Of a stretch of DNA of 20,051 nt, positions 5,378 through 20,051 are shown one piece after another; the stretch's first letter is position 1; every line of letters begins with the position of its first letter. Below the pieces are notes generated by a model. It did not search any database. It was not told where the DNA came from and worked only from the letters and a program-made list of their open reading frames with translations. The stretch is from a virus: positions 1 through 20,051 of the IMG/VR virus record IMGVR_UViG_3300015371_000231; one strand, given 5' to 3'. A program made the translations under genes and the position numbers.

Positions 5378-6361
5378 ATGCCCGAGCGTTCAGCTCTCAC
5401 CCAGGGTGTCCAGATTGGCGTTGAGTCGACGCCGGGCACCTCAGTAGCGGCAAACAAGTCGCTAAACTCTGTCGGGATTGGTCCAGCCATCAAGGTGGAC
5501 ATGCAGCGTTTTCTCCCGATGGGCCAGAAGTACGCTTCAATCATTACCCCAGGTAAGGAGTGGGTCGAGGCAGATCTCGAAGGGGTAGGAACCTACTCCG
5601 AACTGATCTACTTGCTGAGCTCACTTCTTGTCAGCACGGCAGGTGTTCAGCAAGCAGCAACGACTGCGTACAAGTGGACCTTCGCGCCGGCATCCAAGTC
5701 AGAGGACACTGTCAAGACGTTCACGGTCGAGGCTGGTGGGGCGATCAGGGCTCACAAGTTCAGTTACGGTCTCGTAACAGAGATCGAAATGGACATCAAC
5801 AGGGACGGGATCTCCATCTCTGGGGCGATGCTCGGTCAGAGGTTGACGGACAATATCACCCTGACTGCGTCACCGACTGCCATTGAGGAGAAGCCAATTC
5901 TCCCAACGGACATTGACGTTTTCCTCGACTCGTCGTCCGGTGCTCTGGGAACAACGAAGCTCACCCGCGTCCTTAACTGCAATATCAAGATCGGTGACAG
6001 GTTTAACCCTGTCTGGGTCTTGAACACGGCGAATAACTCATTCGTCGCTCATGTTGAGGCTGAGCCTAGCGCACAAATCACTCTCCTCCTCGAGGCTGAC
6101 TCCTCGGGTATGGGTATCCTCACGAACATGCGCGCCGGAACGACTCAGTTCCTTCGCATGAAGGCAACCTCTCCTGACCTCGCTGGTGCCGCGATCCCGT
6201 ACTCGGTTGCTTGGGATTCAGCGATCAAGGTGTCGGATGTCGGCGATTTCTCCGATGAGGACGGAGTGTTCGCTATTGAGTGGACCTTCGACATCGTCCA
6301 TGACGCCACCTGGGGCAAGGCACTGACGGTGGATGTCATTAACAAGCAGATAACTCTGTAA
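5378..6361 (+). CDS. Major tail (tube) protein
   Basis: This 327-residue protein should form the tail tube. It has a strong ribosome binding site (AAGGAGGGAAACC) before ATG 5378, which fits high expression. The beginning (RSALTQGVQIGVESTPGTSV) is typical of phage tube proteins, which often open with a line about 'G-V-E-x-T-P-G-T-x-V/A'. The rest is beta-rich, with segments such as DINRDGISISGAML and a C-terminal strand FAIEWTFDIVHD followed by a short final strand KALTVDVINKQITL. There is no extra Ig-like domain clearly visible. It lies between terminator and chaperone, the expected place. Confidence 0.9.
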   Translation: MPERSALTQGVQIGVESTPGTSVAANKSLNSVGIGPAIKVDMQRFLPMGQKYASIITPGKEWVEADLEGVGTYSELIYLLSSLLVSTAGVQQAATTAYKWTFAPASKSEDTVKTFTVEAGGAIRAHKFSYGLVTEIEMDINRDGISISGAMLGQRLTDNITLTASPTAIEEKPILPTDIDVFLDSSSGALGTTKLTRVLNCNIKIGDRFNPVWVLNTANNSFVAHVEAEPSAQITLLLEADSSGMGILTNMRAGTTQFLRMKATSPDLAGAAIPYSVAWDSAIKVSDVGDFSDEDGVFAIEWTFDIVHDATWGKALTVDVINKQITL

Positions 6362-7293: not shown

Positions 7294-10200
7294 GTGGCAC
7301 TCACTGTTGCACAGCTAGTCGCGCGCCTGACAGCAGATACGTCAGGTTTCTATAGAGGTATGGCAGTCGCCAACGCGGCGATGATTCGCTCTGGCGGAAT
7401 CTTCTCGCGGGTTGCTGCAGGCGCGGGTCTAGCTATCACAGGCATTGGAATTGCTTCACTGAAGAGTGCCGGCAACTTCCAGCAGTCAATGAACATCCTT
7501 GGTGCTGTCTCTGGAGCAACAACCAAGCAGATGGCAGCAATGCACAAGGAAGCGCTTGCTCTTGGTGCTGATCTCAAACTGCCGAATGTGTCAGCGAAAG
7601 ATGCTGCTGACTCAATGGCAGAGTTGGCCAAAGCAGGCCTGTCTGTCAAGGATGTTATGGCTGCAACGCGAGGTGTGCTGCAGTTTGGCATTGCTGCGAA
7701 TGTCGACTTCGCTGACTCTGCCAACATCGTTGCACGCTCGCTGACTGCGTTCCACCTGTCAGGCCAGAATGCTGTCCGGGTTGCTGATTTGTTCACTGCT
7801 GCAGCGAATAAGTCAACAGCAGAAGCATCAGACATGGCACTTGGATTCCAAATGGCATCCGCTCGCTTCGCATCGACACATCAGAGCATTGAGGACCTGA
7901 CAACAGCGATCACTCTGATGGCGAATGCTGGCATCATCGGATCTGATGCAGGTACTTCGCTGAAGACGATGATGAACAGATTAGTGGCGCCGACTAAGAA
8001 GGCACAGGAAGAGATGCACAAGATGGGGTTCGAGGTCTACGACTCCTCTGGGCACATGAAAAAGCTTCCTGCGATTATCGGCAACCTGAATCAGTCACTG
8101 AAGGGAATGTCCGAGGCACAGAAGAACGCTGCTCTCTACACGTTGTTCGGGTCTGATGCTATCCGTGCTGCTACAGTGCTCACGGATGCTGGCGTCAAGG
8201 GGTTTGATCGGATGAAAGATTCGATCACCAAGGGTGGAGAAGCACAGCAGTTCGCTGAAGCACGGACCAAGGGGTTCAATGGCGCGATTCAGGGACTCCT
8301 GTCAACCTCTGAGAACTTCGCTATCCAGTTGGGTGAGCGAATGCTTCCAGCAGCGACACAGGCTACTCAGGGCCTCACTTCCTTCATTGCATCTCTTGAC
8401 CCGAACAAGATCGCTGACTTCGCAGGTGGCATCCTTGGCGTTGTCGCTGACATCGGAAAGTTGGCCTTCGGCACTCGCGCAGGACAGTCAGCGATCCTTG
8501 GCCTCGTTGCAGCATTCCTCACCTACAAGACAGCAGTGCTTGCTGCCAATGCAGCGAATGCTGCTTACATGGGTGTCCTGAACTTGTTGACTTCTTCTTT
8601 CTCCAGGTTCTCGCTGCTCACCATTGCAACGGCAGCAGTCATTGGGCTCGGAGTTGCACTGCACCACTTCCTCTCTGCTGCTCAGGGCGCATCGGCAGAA
8701 GCGCAGCACTACATCGATACCCTGATGAGGCTGCAGCAGATCTCTGATGGCGCACGTAACGCTACGAATGAACTTGCAGACGCCAAGCTTGGAGTTAAGA
8801 GAGCATCTCTCGATGTCGCACTCGCTGAACGTCAAGTGCACACTGCTCTTGTAGAAAGTGGAAAGGGGTCACTTGACTACAAGGTAGCGTTGCTTGGCGT
8901 ATCAGAAGCAAAGCAAAGGCAGATTGAAGCATCTCAGCGTCTACATACGGCACAGATCAAAGAACACCAGCAGACAAAGCTGGTCAAGGATTCCCACGAT
9001 GAACTCTCCAACGCAAGCGAAAAGTTGCGCCAGCACTACAAAGGCCTGTACGACGAAGGAACAAGGCTGATCCGCACAGGTACTGGACTCCAACTTGGAA
9101 TGAAACTTCAAAAGGATGCAACTCAGGGGTTGCAGGTTGACCTCGGGAAACTCGCTGAGAAGGCTGATAGTGTCGCTAAGGCTAACGCGAAGTCACATCC
9201 GCAAATTGCTGCCGCTGCTGCAAAGATTAGAGATCAGGCACTTGCTACTGAGGCCTTGACCAGAAAGCTTGACAAGATTCCATCTGCAGTAGCAAAGGCC
9301 ATTCCTGCTGCGAAAGCAGAAGCTGTAACTCTGGGTAACGCTGTCACTCAGGGTGTCCTCGCTGGGTCAGCAGGACTCGCTGCTTCTCTTGGAGCACAAC
9401 TTGCTGCAGCAGCAGTTTCAGCGATTGCAACAGCGAAGGCTGCGATTGGTGCCCACTCCCCTTCGCGTCTCGCTGCTAACGAAATTGGTAAGCCGCTTGC
9501 TGATGGTATCATTCTTGGGTATCTAAATGGTACTGCTGATCTGCCTGACAAGGTGTCTGAGCGTGTTCGCAAGTCTCTGGATAAGGCCAAAGAGGTCATC
9601 GACAAGTACAGAGACAAGATTAGGTCAGCGTTTGAGCGCATGGCAGGTGACGTAGATAGCGCGTTCGATGCGATCACTCAGAACACACTCACTCCTGCAG
9701 AGGCACTTCTCAACAATGAGCAAAACTCTAGAGATGCTGCTGAACTCCAGCGTAACTTGGATGACGCTAATCAGCGTTACTCTCAGGCAATGAATGATGC
9801 GGATGCTACTGACCAGGATCGAGCAGACGCTCTTCGAGCCGTGCAGGACGCTCAGTGGGAAATTCGTAAGGCAGGTCTTGAACGTCAGGCAGCGCTTGAA
9901 CGCAAGGAATACGACGCACAGAGAGAGCAGCAGAAGAGATCACTGGATGATCAGCTCGCTGACCTCGAGGAGAAGTTGGCTGAGAATCCGAAGAAGCATG
10001 ACTTCTACCAGAAGCAGATTATCGCCCTTCTCAAGAAGTACGGCGTTGACTATGACTCAGTCGGCAACGCTCTCGGGCAGGCTTACGCTACGGGTATGCG
10101 AAAGTCGATGAAAGAGATCCGCAAGACAGCCATTGACATTGTGACGATGGTCATGGAGATTCTGAATAACCCGAAGAAGTATGCTGGCACAGGCGGGGGT

Positions 10201-15149: not shown

Positions 15150-15380
15150 TTAGTTCTCGTCAACAGCGACAAACGCCTTCATGTCTTTGACGCTCTCGGG
15201 AGGGAAGGCCCACAGTAATGCAATACGTCGGGCCTGTCCTTCCGTCCCGTGAGCGTCCTGCTCGCTCGCGGACGCTCGGGCGCTATCGATACGTCCCACA
15301 TGCGCATGTTCCACGGGCATGGACGTTCCATAGTGTCCACTAAGCGGCCAATGGGACGACGAGGTGCTCAGTCGCGTCAT
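15150..15380 (-). CDS. Small hypothetical protein at the end of the replication operon
   Basis: This 76-residue protein starts at ATG 15380 on the minus strand. GGGGAG (15392-15387) lies six bases upstream, inside the end of the polymerase gene, which it overlaps by 41 nt. A longer frame from 15422 is open, but the strong ribosome binding site marks the inner start. The product begins MTRLSTSSSHWPLSGHYG, has several His and Ser residues in the first half and continues with GQARRIALLWAFPPESV before an acidic end (FVAVDEN). No known motif, membrane segment or cysteine is visible. I do not recognise it. Its position implies expression with the DNA polymerase. Confidence 0.6.
   Translation of the reverse strand: MTRLSTSSSHWPLSGHYGTSMPVEHAHVGRIDSARASASEQDAHGTEGQARRIALLWAFPPESVKDMKAFVAVDEN
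15251..15277. repeat. Perfect 8-base inverted repeat inside a coding region
   Basis: GAGCGTCC (15251-15258) pairs exactly with GGACGCTC (15270-15277) around an 11-base loop, TGCTCGCTCGC. It lies within the 76-residue gene, upstream of the main terminator for minus-strand transcripts. It could slow polymerase or shape the messenger end, but a GC-rich coding stretch may give this by chance. Confidence 0.4.
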
Positions 15381-17991
15381 GGCATTCTCCCCATGACTTG
15401 CCAATTGCGACATCAGCAACAAATGGCAAGTTGTACTCTAGCACATCACCTGTCTTGAAAGGCGAGTGCGGGAGAGTGGGGAGAGACATGATAACGTCTT
15501 CTGGCAGTTTGTTCTCCATGGTGTTCTTGATCAACCGCACTGTCTCCTGAACGGTACGCTTGTCTGACTTGCACTCACACATGATCGAGTCATGAACAGA
15601 GAAAAGAACACGCTGTCGATCCGGATCGAACTGCCGGTCGAGGTTGCTCATTGCATTGATAGTGACCTGAGCAGCGAATCCCTGGATGGGGGTATTCACT
15701 GTCTGTCGCTCGATATGTCCACGCTCCGAGTTAAGGATGAAATCGAAGCGGCGGCGGTGACCAAGGGGGTTCTCAACATACTGCTTGCGCATGGAATCCC
15801 GCTTGACCAACTCCATCCACTTAAACAGATCCTTGTACCCCTTCTTGAACTTAGCGAAGTAAGCATCGATCTCGGCATTCGTCCAAGAGCGCCCAGACAT
15901 TTCAACTAGGTTATCCATTTCAGGACCTGTTGCGATGCTCCTCGCGCCACGTCCGTAGATCACTCCAAAGTTCATACACTTCGCCAGGTAACGCTCGTAC
16001 TTGGTGACGAGGTGTTTTGGCTTGTTCCACAGAAGTTCAGCGACTTCCTGATGAATGTCTGCTCCGTTCTTGTACGCTTCGATCAGCAGCTCATCCTGAG
16101 AGAAGAGAGCAGCAACGCGCAACTCCAACTGTGAGTAATCTGCCTCGAGGATTGTCCATCCCGTTTCCGGAATGTACGCCTTGCGGATGTCTACTCCGAC
16201 GTGGGAGGAGTCCGGGATATTTTGAAGGTTTGGGTTGGAGGAGGAGATTCGTGCAGTTGCAGTTCCATGGAGATTGAAGTCACTTCGAATCCGTCCGTCT
16301 GGATCCACTCGTTCAAGAATCCCATCGATGTACGTGCCGATGATCTTTGACTTGACTCTATAAGAAAGGATGAGATTGATAAGGTCAGCAACAGCTGGCC
16401 TTTGCTTAGCAACCTGGCGAGCCAGAACCTTAAGCGTATCTGAATTGGTAGTGACCTCATCGTCAGAACGGCGGTACGCATACCTGCCAACTCCTTTTGG
16501 CATAGCCAGGCCGAGTCCGCCCTCATCACCAGCGTTATAGAGGACTTCTTTGACTTGCTTCGAAGAGTTAGGGTTAAACTCCGCACCTTTGGGGTGGTCG
16601 GTGTGCGCCTGAACAATGGCACGGATGTCCTCCATTTCTTGAGACAGTACCTTCTCGATTTCTCTCTTCTGCTTTTTCAGGTACGGGATGTTCACCCTCG
16701 CGCCTGTGTTCCTCGCGCCGGCGAGTGTGTAGACAGCATTCATCAGGTACCCATCGTGTAGCGCGAGGAGTCTGGGTGACTCATCGATGAGCTTTTCTTT
16801 CAGGATAGGGTACAGGCGCACTGTGGAGAAGCAGTCCTCACCCATGTACGTCAGCATCTCTTCCCACATCTCTGCTTTGCGTTCCTTACCAGGTGCAGGT
16901 CGCATCGCCTTTGGGATCTGCTTCTCTACCACTGCCTCGTACACAGTTTCGACAGAGATGTCTCTCCCCACTTTCCTTCCCCGCCACAAAGGTTCCTCAC
17001 CATGCTGTTCTTCGTACCACGCTCTCCAGCAAGTGCGTGCCTTCTCAGCGTGCTCCTCACAGAACTCTTCGACCCACTCCATACGTGCCTTGTCCCCGAC
17101 TTCCTCGCGGAAGTACTCTTCGAGCCACTCCTTCATGGCAATGCGCTTTGGAGGTGCATCGAAGTAGAGACGTGCCATCAGATCGAGGCCTAGGTGCTTA
17201 TAGCGATTGAACGGACGCTCATCGAGTGCCCAGCCCATCAGCATCGTGTCTGCAAGCTTGTGGAACCTGAACTTACCGAACTTTTTCCAGATGAACTGGA
17301 TATCGAACATGGCATTGTGAAAGACGGTGGTACCTTTGTAGTTCTTCATGAAGGTGAGTACAGGCTTCTTTACCAGGTCTTGCGGCACAACAACGCAGTA
17401 GCCTGAGCCATCTTCGCAAAGGACTGAGAACCCGATTCCAAGGATGTCCGAACCATACGGATTAAGTGACGTTGTCTCGATGTCACAAGAGAGGAATGAC
17501 GCGCCGTGTAGATCCTTGAGGAGCTGTAGGTCCTTGTAACTCTCCACCATCTGAATCTCCAAATCAGGCTGTGCCAAAGGACCACTGTTACTCACCACCT
17601 TCTCGATGTCGAACGCCAAGTCACGGAAGAAATCGGTGTCGCGGACAACGGTAGAGGGAGAGTAGGAGCAGACAGTGTACTTCTTGTTGGGTGCCAGGTA
17701 TCCTCTACCGCGCACTTTGGTAACCGGTATTGTCTTCTCACTGCGAAACACAGTTGCTGCCGCGATCCCACCAAGACAGAGAATCTTCTTGTGAAACTTG
17801 CTCTCTTTGAGTACTCTGTCTGTCTCCTGCAACCATCTCTCTGGTTTGATCTTCTTCAGTTCTTTGTCAGGCATGAAAGGGATAACGTTGGTCATGCCGA
17901 ACTTCTCACCGTGCGCATCGAAGACAGCTTTGACAACCTCGAGATGGTATCCTGACTGAATTGGAGTGTCAGTGACGACGAGTGTGCTCAT
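15340..17991 (-). CDS. polA: Family A DNA polymerase with UDG-like N-terminal domain
   Basis: This 883-residue enzyme should replicate the phage genome. Residues ~1-130 resemble a uracil-DNA glycosylase fold (ILCLGGIAAATVF, then YSPSTVVRD in the place of the HPS motif). The N-terminal GE-x-PG motif and Fe-S cysteines are not visible, so this part is probably inactive. The 3'-5' exonuclease follows: Exo I D170/E172 (SCDIETTSL), Exo II N226/D230 (FHNAMFD), Exo III Y382/D386 (YMGED). All key residues are present. The gap between Exo II and III is about 150 residues, roughly twice that in Klenow, and is rich in Glu, Arg and Lys. In the polymerase part, motif A is ILEADYSQLELR (D618, E623). Motif B has R667, K671, F675 and Y679. 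Motif C is FSVHDSIMC, with HDS rather than HDE. It starts in an ATGA overlap with the transglycosylase gene. Confidence 0.95.
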   Translation of the reverse strand: MSTLVVTDTPIQSGYHLEVVKAVFDAHGEKFGMTNVIPFMPDKELKKIKPERWLQETDRVLKESKFHKKILCLGGIAAATVFRSEKTIPVTKVRGRGYLAPNKKYTVCSYSPSTVVRDTDFFRDLAFDIEKVVSNSGPLAQPDLEIQMVESYKDLQLLKDLHGASFLSCDIETTSLNPYGSDILGIGFSVLCEDGSGYCVVVPQDLVKKPVLTFMKNYKGTTVFHNAMFDIQFIWKKFGKFRFHKLADTMLMGWALDERPFNRYKHLGLDLMARLYFDAPPKRIAMKEWLEEYFREEVGDKARMEWVEEFCEEHAEKARTCWRAWYEEQHGEEPLWRGRKVGRDISVETVYEAVVEKQIPKAMRPAPGKERKAEMWEEMLTYMGEDCFSTVRLYPILKEKLIDESPRLLALHDGYLMNAVYTLAGARNTGARVNIPYLKKQKREIEKVLSQEMEDIRAIVQAHTDHPKGAEFNPNSSKQVKEVLYNAGDEGGLGLAMPKGVGRYAYRRSDDEVTTNSDTLKVLARQVAKQRPAVADLINLILSYRVKSKIIGTYIDGILERVDPDGRIRSDFNLHGTATARISSSNPNLQNIPDSSHVGVDIRKAYIPETGWTILEADYSQLELRVAALFSQDELLIEAYKNGADIHQEVAELLWNKPKHLVTKYERYLAKCMNFGVIYGRGARSIATGPEMDNLVEMSGRSWTNAEIDAYFAKFKKGYKDLFKWMELVKRDSMRKQYVENPLGHRRRFDFILNSERGHIERQTVNTPIQGFAAQVTINAMSNLDRQFDPDRQRVLFSVHDSIMCECKSDKRTVQETVRLIKNTMENKLPEDVIMSLPTLPHSPFKTGDVLEYNLPFVADVAIGKSWGECHDATEHLVVPLAA

Positions 17992-18794
17992 GCTCTCCCC
18001 TCCGCGATCAACCGAAACGTCGAGCAGTTACGAACAGCAATTTCTCTCTTCTGCTCCCTGAACGTCGTCTCGAAGTAGTTGAATGGGCGTCCTGGATACT
18101 CCGGCACCTCACTTCCGAACTTTAGCTCGATGTTGTGCATTGCGTAGACAAAAGGCTTGGCGCTGTCTGTGCTCCGAACCCATGGGAATGTCCGCGCGAG
18201 GTAGTTCAGTGCCCACAATTGACGTCCCCACCCGAGCAGATGTACCTTTGCTCTCTTCTCTAGCACGAAGGGACGGCAGAAGTCGAGAAGCGTTGCAAGG
18301 CCTCCTGGCCACATCTCGTAGTCCTTGGAGATCCCGATGACAAAATCAGAACGGACAGCGCGTCTCTTGACTACGTACTCATGCATGGAGACAAGTTCGA
18401 GGAGACACGACTTCCACTCTAGAGGATCCTTAGCCTGAGGCACATACATCAGTGCTGGATTGAGATGCTGCATCCTGCTATCTGAGTCCTCGAACCAGCA
18501 CTCAAGAGCACACATGCTCGCTTCGATAGTCGCTCCGCTGTCTTCGAGCACATCTGGAACGACAACCTCCTGCGCGTTGAGTTCCAACGCCTGCTCGCGC
18601 AAAAGCCATGCTGCCTCCCCTGCCTTGTGCTCGTGTGCTGAGTTGTCAAGCACGAGGTAGGCGCCAAGATCCCGCTGCAGTTGATAGTGCTGAAAGTACT
18701 TTTCACTTGCCAGTAGGTGTGAGAGGAGCAAATGAAAAGAACCGTTGCCAAACATGGGCAACAAAGGGATAGGAGGAATGAGTGCTGTCTTCAC
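17988..18794 (-). CDS. TGT/DpdA-like DNA 7-deazaguanine transglycosylase (candidate)
   Basis: This 268-residue protein starts at GTG 18794, which overlaps the upstream gene's TGA as GTGA. A 45-residue longer frame would lie inside that gene and is not used here. It looks like a tRNA-guanine transglycosylase-type TIM barrel. AYLVLDNSAHE (D50) sits where TGT has its DSGGFQ aspartate. AQEVVVPDVLED (80-82), ALMYVPQAKDP and FVIGIS (152-156) follow. HLLGWG (185-190) and STDSAKP (D210) match the HYLMGVG and nucleophile aspartate block. The TGT zinc motif CxCxxC is not seen. Phage members of this superfamily, DpdA, swap guanine for a 7-deazaguanine in DNA (known). Coupling to the polymerase gene favours DNA over tRNA as substrate. 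Family assignment is by eye. Confidence 0.75.
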   Translation of the reverse strand: MKTALIPPIPLLPMFGNGSFHLLLSHLLASEKYFQHYQLQRDLGAYLVLDNSAHEHKAGEAAWLLREQALELNAQEVVVPDVLEDSGATIEASMCALECWFEDSDSRMQHLNPALMYVPQAKDPLEWKSCLLELVSMHEYVVKRRAVRSDFVIGISKDYEMWPGGLATLLDFCRPFVLEKRAKVHLLGWGRQLWALNYLARTFPWVRSTDSAKPFVYAMHNIELKFGSEVPEYPGRPFNYFETTFREQKREIAVRNCSTFRLIAEGRA

Positions 18795-19570
18795 GCTGTC
18801 ACCGTCTTGTCTGCTCCAGGCCACACCTCGATTGTTGTCTGTGGGATCTGGCCTGTCCGGATAACTTTGCGCAGTTCTTTCTTGATCTGGGTGAGACACG
18901 TCTTGATACCGAAGTACCGCGCCCACTCTGAAAAACGATCCAGGATGGGAAGTAGAGACTCTAGTTCCATCTCTTCCACTGACCTCACGATGTCGAATTC
19001 ACACTGTGGAGTCGGTGTCATTGCCCACGCACGTCCGAACGGCTTCTTCAGGACGTAAGTTGCTCTAGGACGCATTTGGATGAATTGGAGTTGCGGTGCT
19101 GAGATACAAGAAAGAGGAGGTGCCGGCCACTGAGCACATCCAAGGCCTCCCCCGGGTGTCCTAGCTGTGAGAAAGTCACAGATCGGATTCGCGTTCTGGT
19201 CGTTAGTCCAGACTGTCTTCTTCTTGCCATTGATCCAGACGGTTCGTTCACTGAACCCCTCCTTATGCTCTACCATCGTGGCGTACTCCATTGGCGTGTA
19301 GTCGAGAGTGAACTTCTGACAACACGCCGTACATCCCTCAGCGCATGTGAACTTACGGAACAGTGATGGAGTGATCAGCACACGATCCACAGGCGCGTCA
19401 AACGTGCGCTCTGCGAGGACACGACCTGCGGGAGTGGTAGGCTTGTACCTGACGACGTCCGGTGAGAGCAACGAGATCTGTAGGAGTATCTTCTCTACAG
19501 AATCCGCGTGGCCTACGCTGTTGCGCCGAGGAACTTCATTGGCGCGAAGCGTGGCGATTTGCTTGAGCAT
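18791..19570 (-). CDS. YkgJ-type (CxxxCxxCC) cysteine-rich metal-binding protein
   Basis: This 259-residue protein starts at ATG 19570, behind GAGGAG eight bases upstream, and ends in a GTGA overlap with the transglycosylase gene. The core motif is C76-x3-C80-x2-C83-C84 (CAEGCTACCQ). More cysteines follow at 131 (PICDFL), 145 (GLGCAQW), 155 (LSCISA), 190 and 225. Eight of these match the eight-cysteine layout of the YkgJ/UPF0153 family, which is thought to bind zinc or an iron-sulphur cluster. The flagellin lysine methylase FliB has been placed in the same family, so a modifying enzyme is possible. The N-terminal 70 residues and C-terminal 60 residues are extra, mostly helical. Being coupled to a base transglycosylase, it may act on the base or in electron transfer. 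That is inference. Confidence 0.75.
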   Translation of the reverse strand: MLKQIATLRANEVPRRNSVGHADSVEKILLQISLLSPDVVRYKPTTPAGRVLAERTFDAPVDRVLITPSLFRKFTCAEGCTACCQKFTLDYTPMEYATMVEHKEGFSERTVWINGKKKTVWTNDQNANPICDFLTARTPGGGLGCAQWPAPPLSCISAPQLQFIQMRPRATYVLKKPFGRAWAMTPTPQCEFDIVRSVEEMELESLLPILDRFSEWARYFGIKTCLTQIKKELRKVIRTGQIPQTTIEVWPGADKTVTA

Positions 19571-19796
19571 TAATTCTCCTCACTCTGATATGCAGCATGA
19601 CAAGATGGTTGATCGTGTCTTCGATCTCTTCGAGGATCGCTCTCTCCATCTCCTCTGGAGTGTACTGTTCGAATGACTGCACGTCTCCAAAAGAGTACTG
19701 CTCATGCCCGATGCCAAGGATCCTCTCGCTACAGTGCGAAACGATGTGGATGACCTCTGCTGCTAGCTGCTCACTCTCCATCTGCTGCTGTCTCAT
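19536..19796 (-). CDS. Small helical protein, MazG-like by weak resemblance
   Basis: The 86-residue form starts at ATG 19796; a second ATG at 19781 is equally possible, and ribosome binding sites before both are weak. It overlaps the upstream gene by 26 nt and the YkgJ-type gene by 35 nt. The product is helical: an N-terminal MESEQLAAEVIHIVSHCSER, a central GIGHEQYSFGDVQSFEQ, and a C-terminal AILEEIEDTINHLVMLHIRVRR. The EE-I-E-D-x-I-N-H pattern recalls the metal-binding helix of MazG-like nucleotide pyrophosphohydrolases. Similar small proteins are common in actinophages, usually without known function. The role is not established. It sits in an operon for DNA metabolism, which would fit a nucleotide-cleaning enzyme. 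Confidence 0.6.
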   Translation of the reverse strand: MRQQQMESEQLAAEVIHIVSHCSERILGIGHEQYSFGDVQSFEQYTPEEMERAILEEIEDTINHLVMLHIRVRRINAQANRHASRQ

Positions 19797-20051
19797 CAGG
19801 ATCCGGGGACCCGATAGGAGGGAGTTCATCCAGCACTTCACTGAAGTACTTTTTTGCGCCCTCATCGAATGGCATTTTGTAGACGTGGCGGTCAGCAGCA
19901 TCTGTGATCTGCAAGAGATAGCCTTGCACTATCCCGTCTTCGATCACAGCGTAGAGAACAGCATTGCAGTTCTGGAACGTTGTCTCGTGAAATGTCCTTG
20001 CAGGTGCAACGCGCATGCTCGGATCTTTCAGAGCAGATAGGTCTACTCCAC
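19771..20051 (-). CDS. C-terminal part of a hypothetical protein (cut by the right edge)
   Basis: The frame is open from the right edge of the window to TGA 19773-19771. An inner ATG at 20016 would give 81 residues. However, the codons upstream of it also look coding (GVDLSALKDPS), and only a weak purine stretch precedes the ATG, so the true start is probably outside the window. The visible part has a beta-rich centre (NCNAVLYAVIEDGIVQGYLLQITD and the following AADRHVYKMPFD). An acidic, proline-containing tail (ELPPIGSPDPDETAADGE) follows. It has no recognised motif. It is the first visible gene of the minus-strand operon, so the operon's promoter must lie further right. Confidence 0.55.
   Translation of the reverse strand, partial: GVDLSALKDPSMRVAPARTFHETTFQNCNAVLYAVIEDGIVQGYLLQITDAADRHVYKMPFDEGAKKYFSEVLDELPPIGSPDPDETAADGE

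Follow-up and report, generated by a model that had tools for sequence, protein, structure and literature searches.

A probable phage 7-deazaguanine cassette, with a CP220-like DpdA and a likely DpdM, linked by gene order to a family A DNA polymerase

Campylobacter phage CP220 is reported to have 100% of its dG replaced by dADG (PMC8306585), and as of 2019 no DpdA was known in this phage (PMC6884629). Enterobacteria phage 9g carries a DpdA within a preQ0-type cassette, while Flavobacterium phage immuto encodes an annotated 'DNA guanine transglycosylase' with genes for FolE, QueD, QueE, QueF and a family A polymerase nearby, and Cellulophaga phage phiSM (CEPG_00049-00058) encodes a cysteine-cluster protein amid genes for FolE, QueF, QueC, QueD and radical SAM proteins. 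Enzymes of the CP220 type were reportedly named DpdA3 by Cui et al. in 2023, and the same work is said to have described DpdM, a dPreQ1 methyltransferase whose fold is new and unlike that of known nucleic acid methylases. We take the CP220 protein CPT_0056 to be of the DpdA3 type and the phiSM cysteine-cluster protein to be DpdM.

The window, meaning the entire 20,051-base stretch analyzed here, is a whole virus record that is probably a fragment, and contains three overlapping genes on the minus strand. These encode a 259-residue cysteine-cluster (YkgJ/CxxCxxCC-like) protein that is likely DpdM (18791-19570), a 268-residue DpdA-type DNA guanine transglycosylase with a GTG start (17988-18794), and an 883-residue family A DNA polymerase, PolA (15340-17991). 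The GTGA and ATGA junctions that the initial annotation took as translational coupling are confirmed: the cysteine-protein/DpdA junction (GCGTGAAG) reads GTGA, the DpdA/PolA junction (GCATGAGC) reads ATGA, and both are overlaps of 4 nt; a strong ribosome-binding site (GGAGGGGAG) precedes PolA. Of the first 13 related viral contigs, 12 share this gene order, which indicates that the three open reading frames (ORFs) are real genes. Identities in these contigs are 42-56% for DpdA, 54-73% for the cysteine protein and, where PolA is in view, 55-66% for PolA. Structural genes lie to the left of the locus, and their major capsid protein shares 56% identity with its counterpart in Arthrobacter phages, Bridgette and Eileen among them, making an actinobacterial host a reasonable guess. 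Scans for a preQ1 riboswitch or any other RNA family returned nothing in the window or five relatives apart from a single tRNA, in contig L038.

Structural modeling supports the proposed assignment of the central gene product to the TGT/DpdA superfamily. The AlphaFold model, built from 41 relatives (pLDDT 97.2), adopts the TGT-type barrel; its first-ranked Foldseek match in the PDB is the DNA preQ0 insertase DpdA (7ui4, E 1.5e-4), and the 50 VIA matches listed are TGT or DpdA throughout, with Z scores from 16.7 (TGT, 2ash) to 16.1 (7ui4). The fold is thus like that of the bacterial DpdA 7ui4 (rmsd 3.3 over 230 residues), although the two share 14% identity and the solved chain has 413 residues versus 268 in the window protein. 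At the sequence level, likeness to TGT is detectable by profiles only: comparison of the DpdA-like family with bacterial (E. coli-type) TGT gave an E of 1.4e-6, single-sequence comparisons with proteins of 9g, Knocker and Pan1 and with E. coli TGT were uninformative, and a peptide-pattern scan with the single protein found nothing where an alignment-based query succeeded. PDB sequence searches with the DpdA-like profile and with the cysteine-protein profile returned no relative, and Pfam and NCBIfam scans of the DpdA-like protein gave no match. The miss by the Pfam TGT model (PF01702) does not exclude kinship with TGT, because this model also misses the DpdA of phage 9g; it gave zero matches across 15 records that include known DpdA phages and is not a useful test.

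All four sequence motifs to which the initial annotation had drawn attention, LDNSAHE, VVVPDV, HLLGWG and STDSAKP, are present, and its two candidate catalytic aspartates, D50 and D210, are correctly placed and invariant. They are accompanied by N51, D81, H185, L187 and G188 as invariant residues in 44 sequences, including those of CP220, immuto and Chryseobacterium phage MA9V-3, and Q120 is also conserved. In the profile alignment D210 coincides with D264 of E. coli TGT, which corresponds to the nucleophile Asp280 of the Z. mobilis enzyme (PMC3660597). D50 is the last residue of the strand YLVLD (46-50), a segment outside the profile alignment, and its pairing with the TGT motif DSGGF follows from the order of strands and the pattern only. 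A TGT fold with Z of about 16 to many tRNA TGTs would also suit a divergent TGT acting on host tRNA to raise its queuosine content and leaving the DNA unmodified, but we consider a tRNA target very improbable. The best Foldseek match is a DNA-acting DpdA, the gene is tightly linked to polA, and the nearest relatives come from phages with a DpdA annotation or with proven DNA substitution. Moreover, the zinc-binding motif of TGT (CxCxxC...H, in which the E. coli enzyme reads CDCYTC) is absent, the five cysteines of the protein being scattered at positions 95, 99, 130, 173 and 257.

The closest proteins in annotated phages are the immuto DNA guanine transglycosylase (tblastn E 3e-6) and an unnamed protein of MA9V-3, each with 25-27% identity, and the window DpdA profile matches CPT_0056, an unnamed protein of CP220, with an E of 2e-18 and the same motifs. 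Despite this shared DpdA family, the surrounding genes differ: a DpdM-like gene was not found in CP220, whose product is dADG rather than the dPreQ1 or derivative predicted here from the presence of QueF in relatives, and in immuto a gene annotated as a formyltransferase lies near DpdA and the cysteine-cluster protein was not found. The DpdA-family profile had no match in the genomes of phages 9g and CAjan and only a marginal one in Vibrio phage nt-1. Judged by sequence, the window DpdA therefore does not belong to the 9g/CAjan (9g-type, DpdA1) subfamily; a like function, base exchange in phage DNA, is expected of the 9g enzyme, although no sequence match between it and the window family is detectable.

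The pairing of DpdA with the polymerase gene, proposed in the initial annotation as a guanine-replacement module linked to phage DNA synthesis, is borne out by gene order in both the window and its relatives. Among 36 distinct loci, 21 have the two genes abutting or overlapping, the overlap being exactly 4 nt in six, and the pairing reaches lineages without the cysteine protein. The coupling of DpdA to DNA synthesis is read entirely from this arrangement, in which the overlap with polA would give co-translation with the replicative polymerase. The arrangement could also be taken to mean that the deazaguanine enters by way of the dNTP pool and the polymerase, with the TGT-like protein in an accessory role, and a dATP/dGTP diphosphohydrolase-like gene does occur in the cassettes of two relatives. 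Entry through the dNTP pool nonetheless seems highly unlikely to us, as a non-catalytic role would not call for the full conservation of catalytic residues, and the scan of L028 cassette genes revealed no deazaguanine-nucleotide kinase. PolA itself matches PF00476 (3.6e-81) and PF01612 (4.5e-10). Its 3'-5' exonuclease and polymerase domains are preceded by an N-terminal stretch of about 120 residues with a likeness to uracil-DNA glycosylases as a superfamily (PF03167, E 7.8e-5, narrowly missing the cut-off). This stretch may serve to bind DNA or be a remnant that no longer has catalytic activity.

No preQ0 or preQ1 synthesis gene lies within the window, the relevant region being cut off by the contig end. 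Upstream of the cysteine gene the sequence runs on for about 480 bases and ends in the region where queC is located in relatives. A small minus-strand ORF of 81 residues near this end (19771-20016) matches, by BLASTP with 32% identity and an E of 6e-10, the ORF immediately downstream of queC in the related contig L025 (5480-5788; queC ends at 5484), and therefore marks how near the missing cassette lies. In contig L028 the order is QueF-like, QueD, QueE, FolE, QueC, cysteine protein, one ORF, DpdA and PolA. There, FolE, QueE and QueC exceed curated cut-offs and the QueF-like call falls below, phage QueF and QueF-L being hard to distinguish by sequence (PMC6884629). QueC passes its cut-off in 12 of the first 13 related contigs, and DpdA lies beside preQ0/preQ1 synthesis genes, with at least one 7-deazaguanine gene in view, in 58 of the 61 contigs with a window-type DpdA. 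The cassette genes of these relatives therefore suggest that the three genes close a complete preQ1 cassette, with FolE, QueD, QueE, QueC and QueF presumably just beyond the end of the window. What had been described as a three-gene unit is thus better read as the last part of a larger cassette for making and inserting preQ1, severed by the contig end.

The gap between queC and dpdM/dpdA holds one small gene per relative, of differing family (L007:1457-1684, L025:5751-6008, L026:9648-10001, L028:8503-8805, L040:9610-10029 and L084:9625-9993), these families being DUF3310, dATP/dGTP diphosphohydrolase N-terminal or DUF6378. No Pfam family matches the small ORF found here in the window (19539-19790). 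Between the cysteine protein and DpdA of L028 lies a 128-residue ORF (9618-10001) with a CxxC...H...CxxCH arrangement suggestive of an HNH nuclease and no Pfam match. Four contigs (L037, L038, L039 and L042) retain genes for QueF-like, cysteine protein, DpdA and PolA, and FolE, QueD, QueE and QueC were not seen nearby, as if preQ0 came from the host or from another genomic location.

The cysteine-cluster protein had been introduced as an eight-cysteine YkgJ-type protein and a possibly undescribed partner of DpdA. Eight cysteines are indeed invariant in 34 relatives, as are R180 and W182, out of nine in the window protein; the match to PF03692, a putative zinc/iron-chelating family, is weak, and phrog_16018 matches at 7e-12. 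The suggestion of an undescribed partner is not supported, for the protein is a recurrent member of 7-deazaguanine cassettes and very probably DpdM. It belongs to the same family as the cysteine proteins of phiSM (CEPG_00054, profile E 1e-47), Pseudanabaena phage Pan1 (Pan1_55) and Mycobacterium phage Knocker (gp4), which are always surrounded by 7-deazaguanine genes. Pan1_55 and Knocker gp4 each directly adjoin a TGT/DpdA gene; in phiSM a window-type DpdA was not detected, and the neighbor CEPG_00053 aligns weakly.

Occurrence of the cysteine protein is linked to that of QueF. Among contigs with a window-type DpdA and the cassette in view, those with the cysteine protein have QueF in 13 cases and lack it in two, while those without have it in six and lack it in 26 (Fisher p 1.4e-5, a value that overstates independence because the contigs share ancestry). 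Both QueF-less exceptions are truncated inside the cassette, L012 beginning in QueD and L017 in QueE, so that in untruncated contigs QueF accompanies the cysteine protein in 13 of 13. Beside other DpdA types, the cysteine protein also occurs in four contigs that carry pathway genes but in which QueF was not called. Since, with a window-type DpdA and the full cassette in view, the cysteine protein is found only alongside QueF, we place it at a step after preQ1, which by this distribution would be optional. Six contigs have QueF and DpdA without the cysteine protein (L025, L026, L031, L032, L040 and L048), and their phages may contain plain dPreQ1 or use another modifying enzyme. In two others the cysteine protein is encoded about 6 kb upstream of DpdA, beyond the queF-folE genes (L034:3264-4022 and L053:3113-3871).

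The model of the cysteine protein (pLDDT 91.9) matched no PDB fold, which by itself does not establish a new one, and just three viral folds, at E<1e-11; three PDB chains listed by VIA, each with Z of 2.3-2.6, were read as noise. No recognized methyltransferase domain was found in it by Pfam and NCBIfam scans. Together with the eight invariant cysteines and the weak PF03692 match, these results would suit a metal or Fe-S protein that works with the same DpdA and either alters dPreQ1 differently or delivers the base to DpdA, a reading to which we give a small but appreciable chance. The tie to QueF and preQ1 fits better with DpdM, as does the reportedly new fold of the dPreQ1 methyltransferase, and we regard the cysteine protein as likely to be DpdM and hence a putative dPreQ1 methyltransferase.

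Taken together, we consider it probable that these genes form the 3′ end of a 7-deazaguanine DNA modification cassette in which preQ1 is made, inserted by DpdA and methylated by DpdM. FolE, QueD, QueE and QueC would convert GTP to preQ0, which QueF would reduce to preQ1. The DpdA-type transglycosylase would then exchange guanine in phage DNA for the free 7-deazaguanine base via a covalent enzyme-DNA intermediate, with D210 as the nucleophile and D50 as the acid/base, and the cysteine-cluster protein, most likely DpdM, would methylate dPreQ1 at its aminomethyl group, yielding mdPreQ1. Such a swap would probably hide the phage DNA from bacterial restriction enzymes, and full guanine replacement is possible. 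More tentatively, and in our view less likely than not, this uncultured, apparently actinobacterial lineage may replace most or all of its guanine with N-methylated preQ1, using a CP220-like DpdA and DpdM, with DpdA made in step with the polymerase. To our knowledge, the combination of a CP220-like DpdA with DpdM is known from no described phage.

The window system belongs to an already known kind of guanine-replacement pathway and adds a further, uncultured phage lineage to those with a CP220-like DpdA, the type linked to complete guanine replacement. The cysteine-cluster protein emerges as a portable add-on that accompanies different DpdA subfamilies, and beside the window-type DpdA, where this can be tested, it appears only where preQ1 is made, which offers a clear test of its step. 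Because neither Pfam nor NCBIfam confidently names the window-type DpdA or the cysteine protein, their description should also aid the annotation of many 'hypothetical' phage genes.
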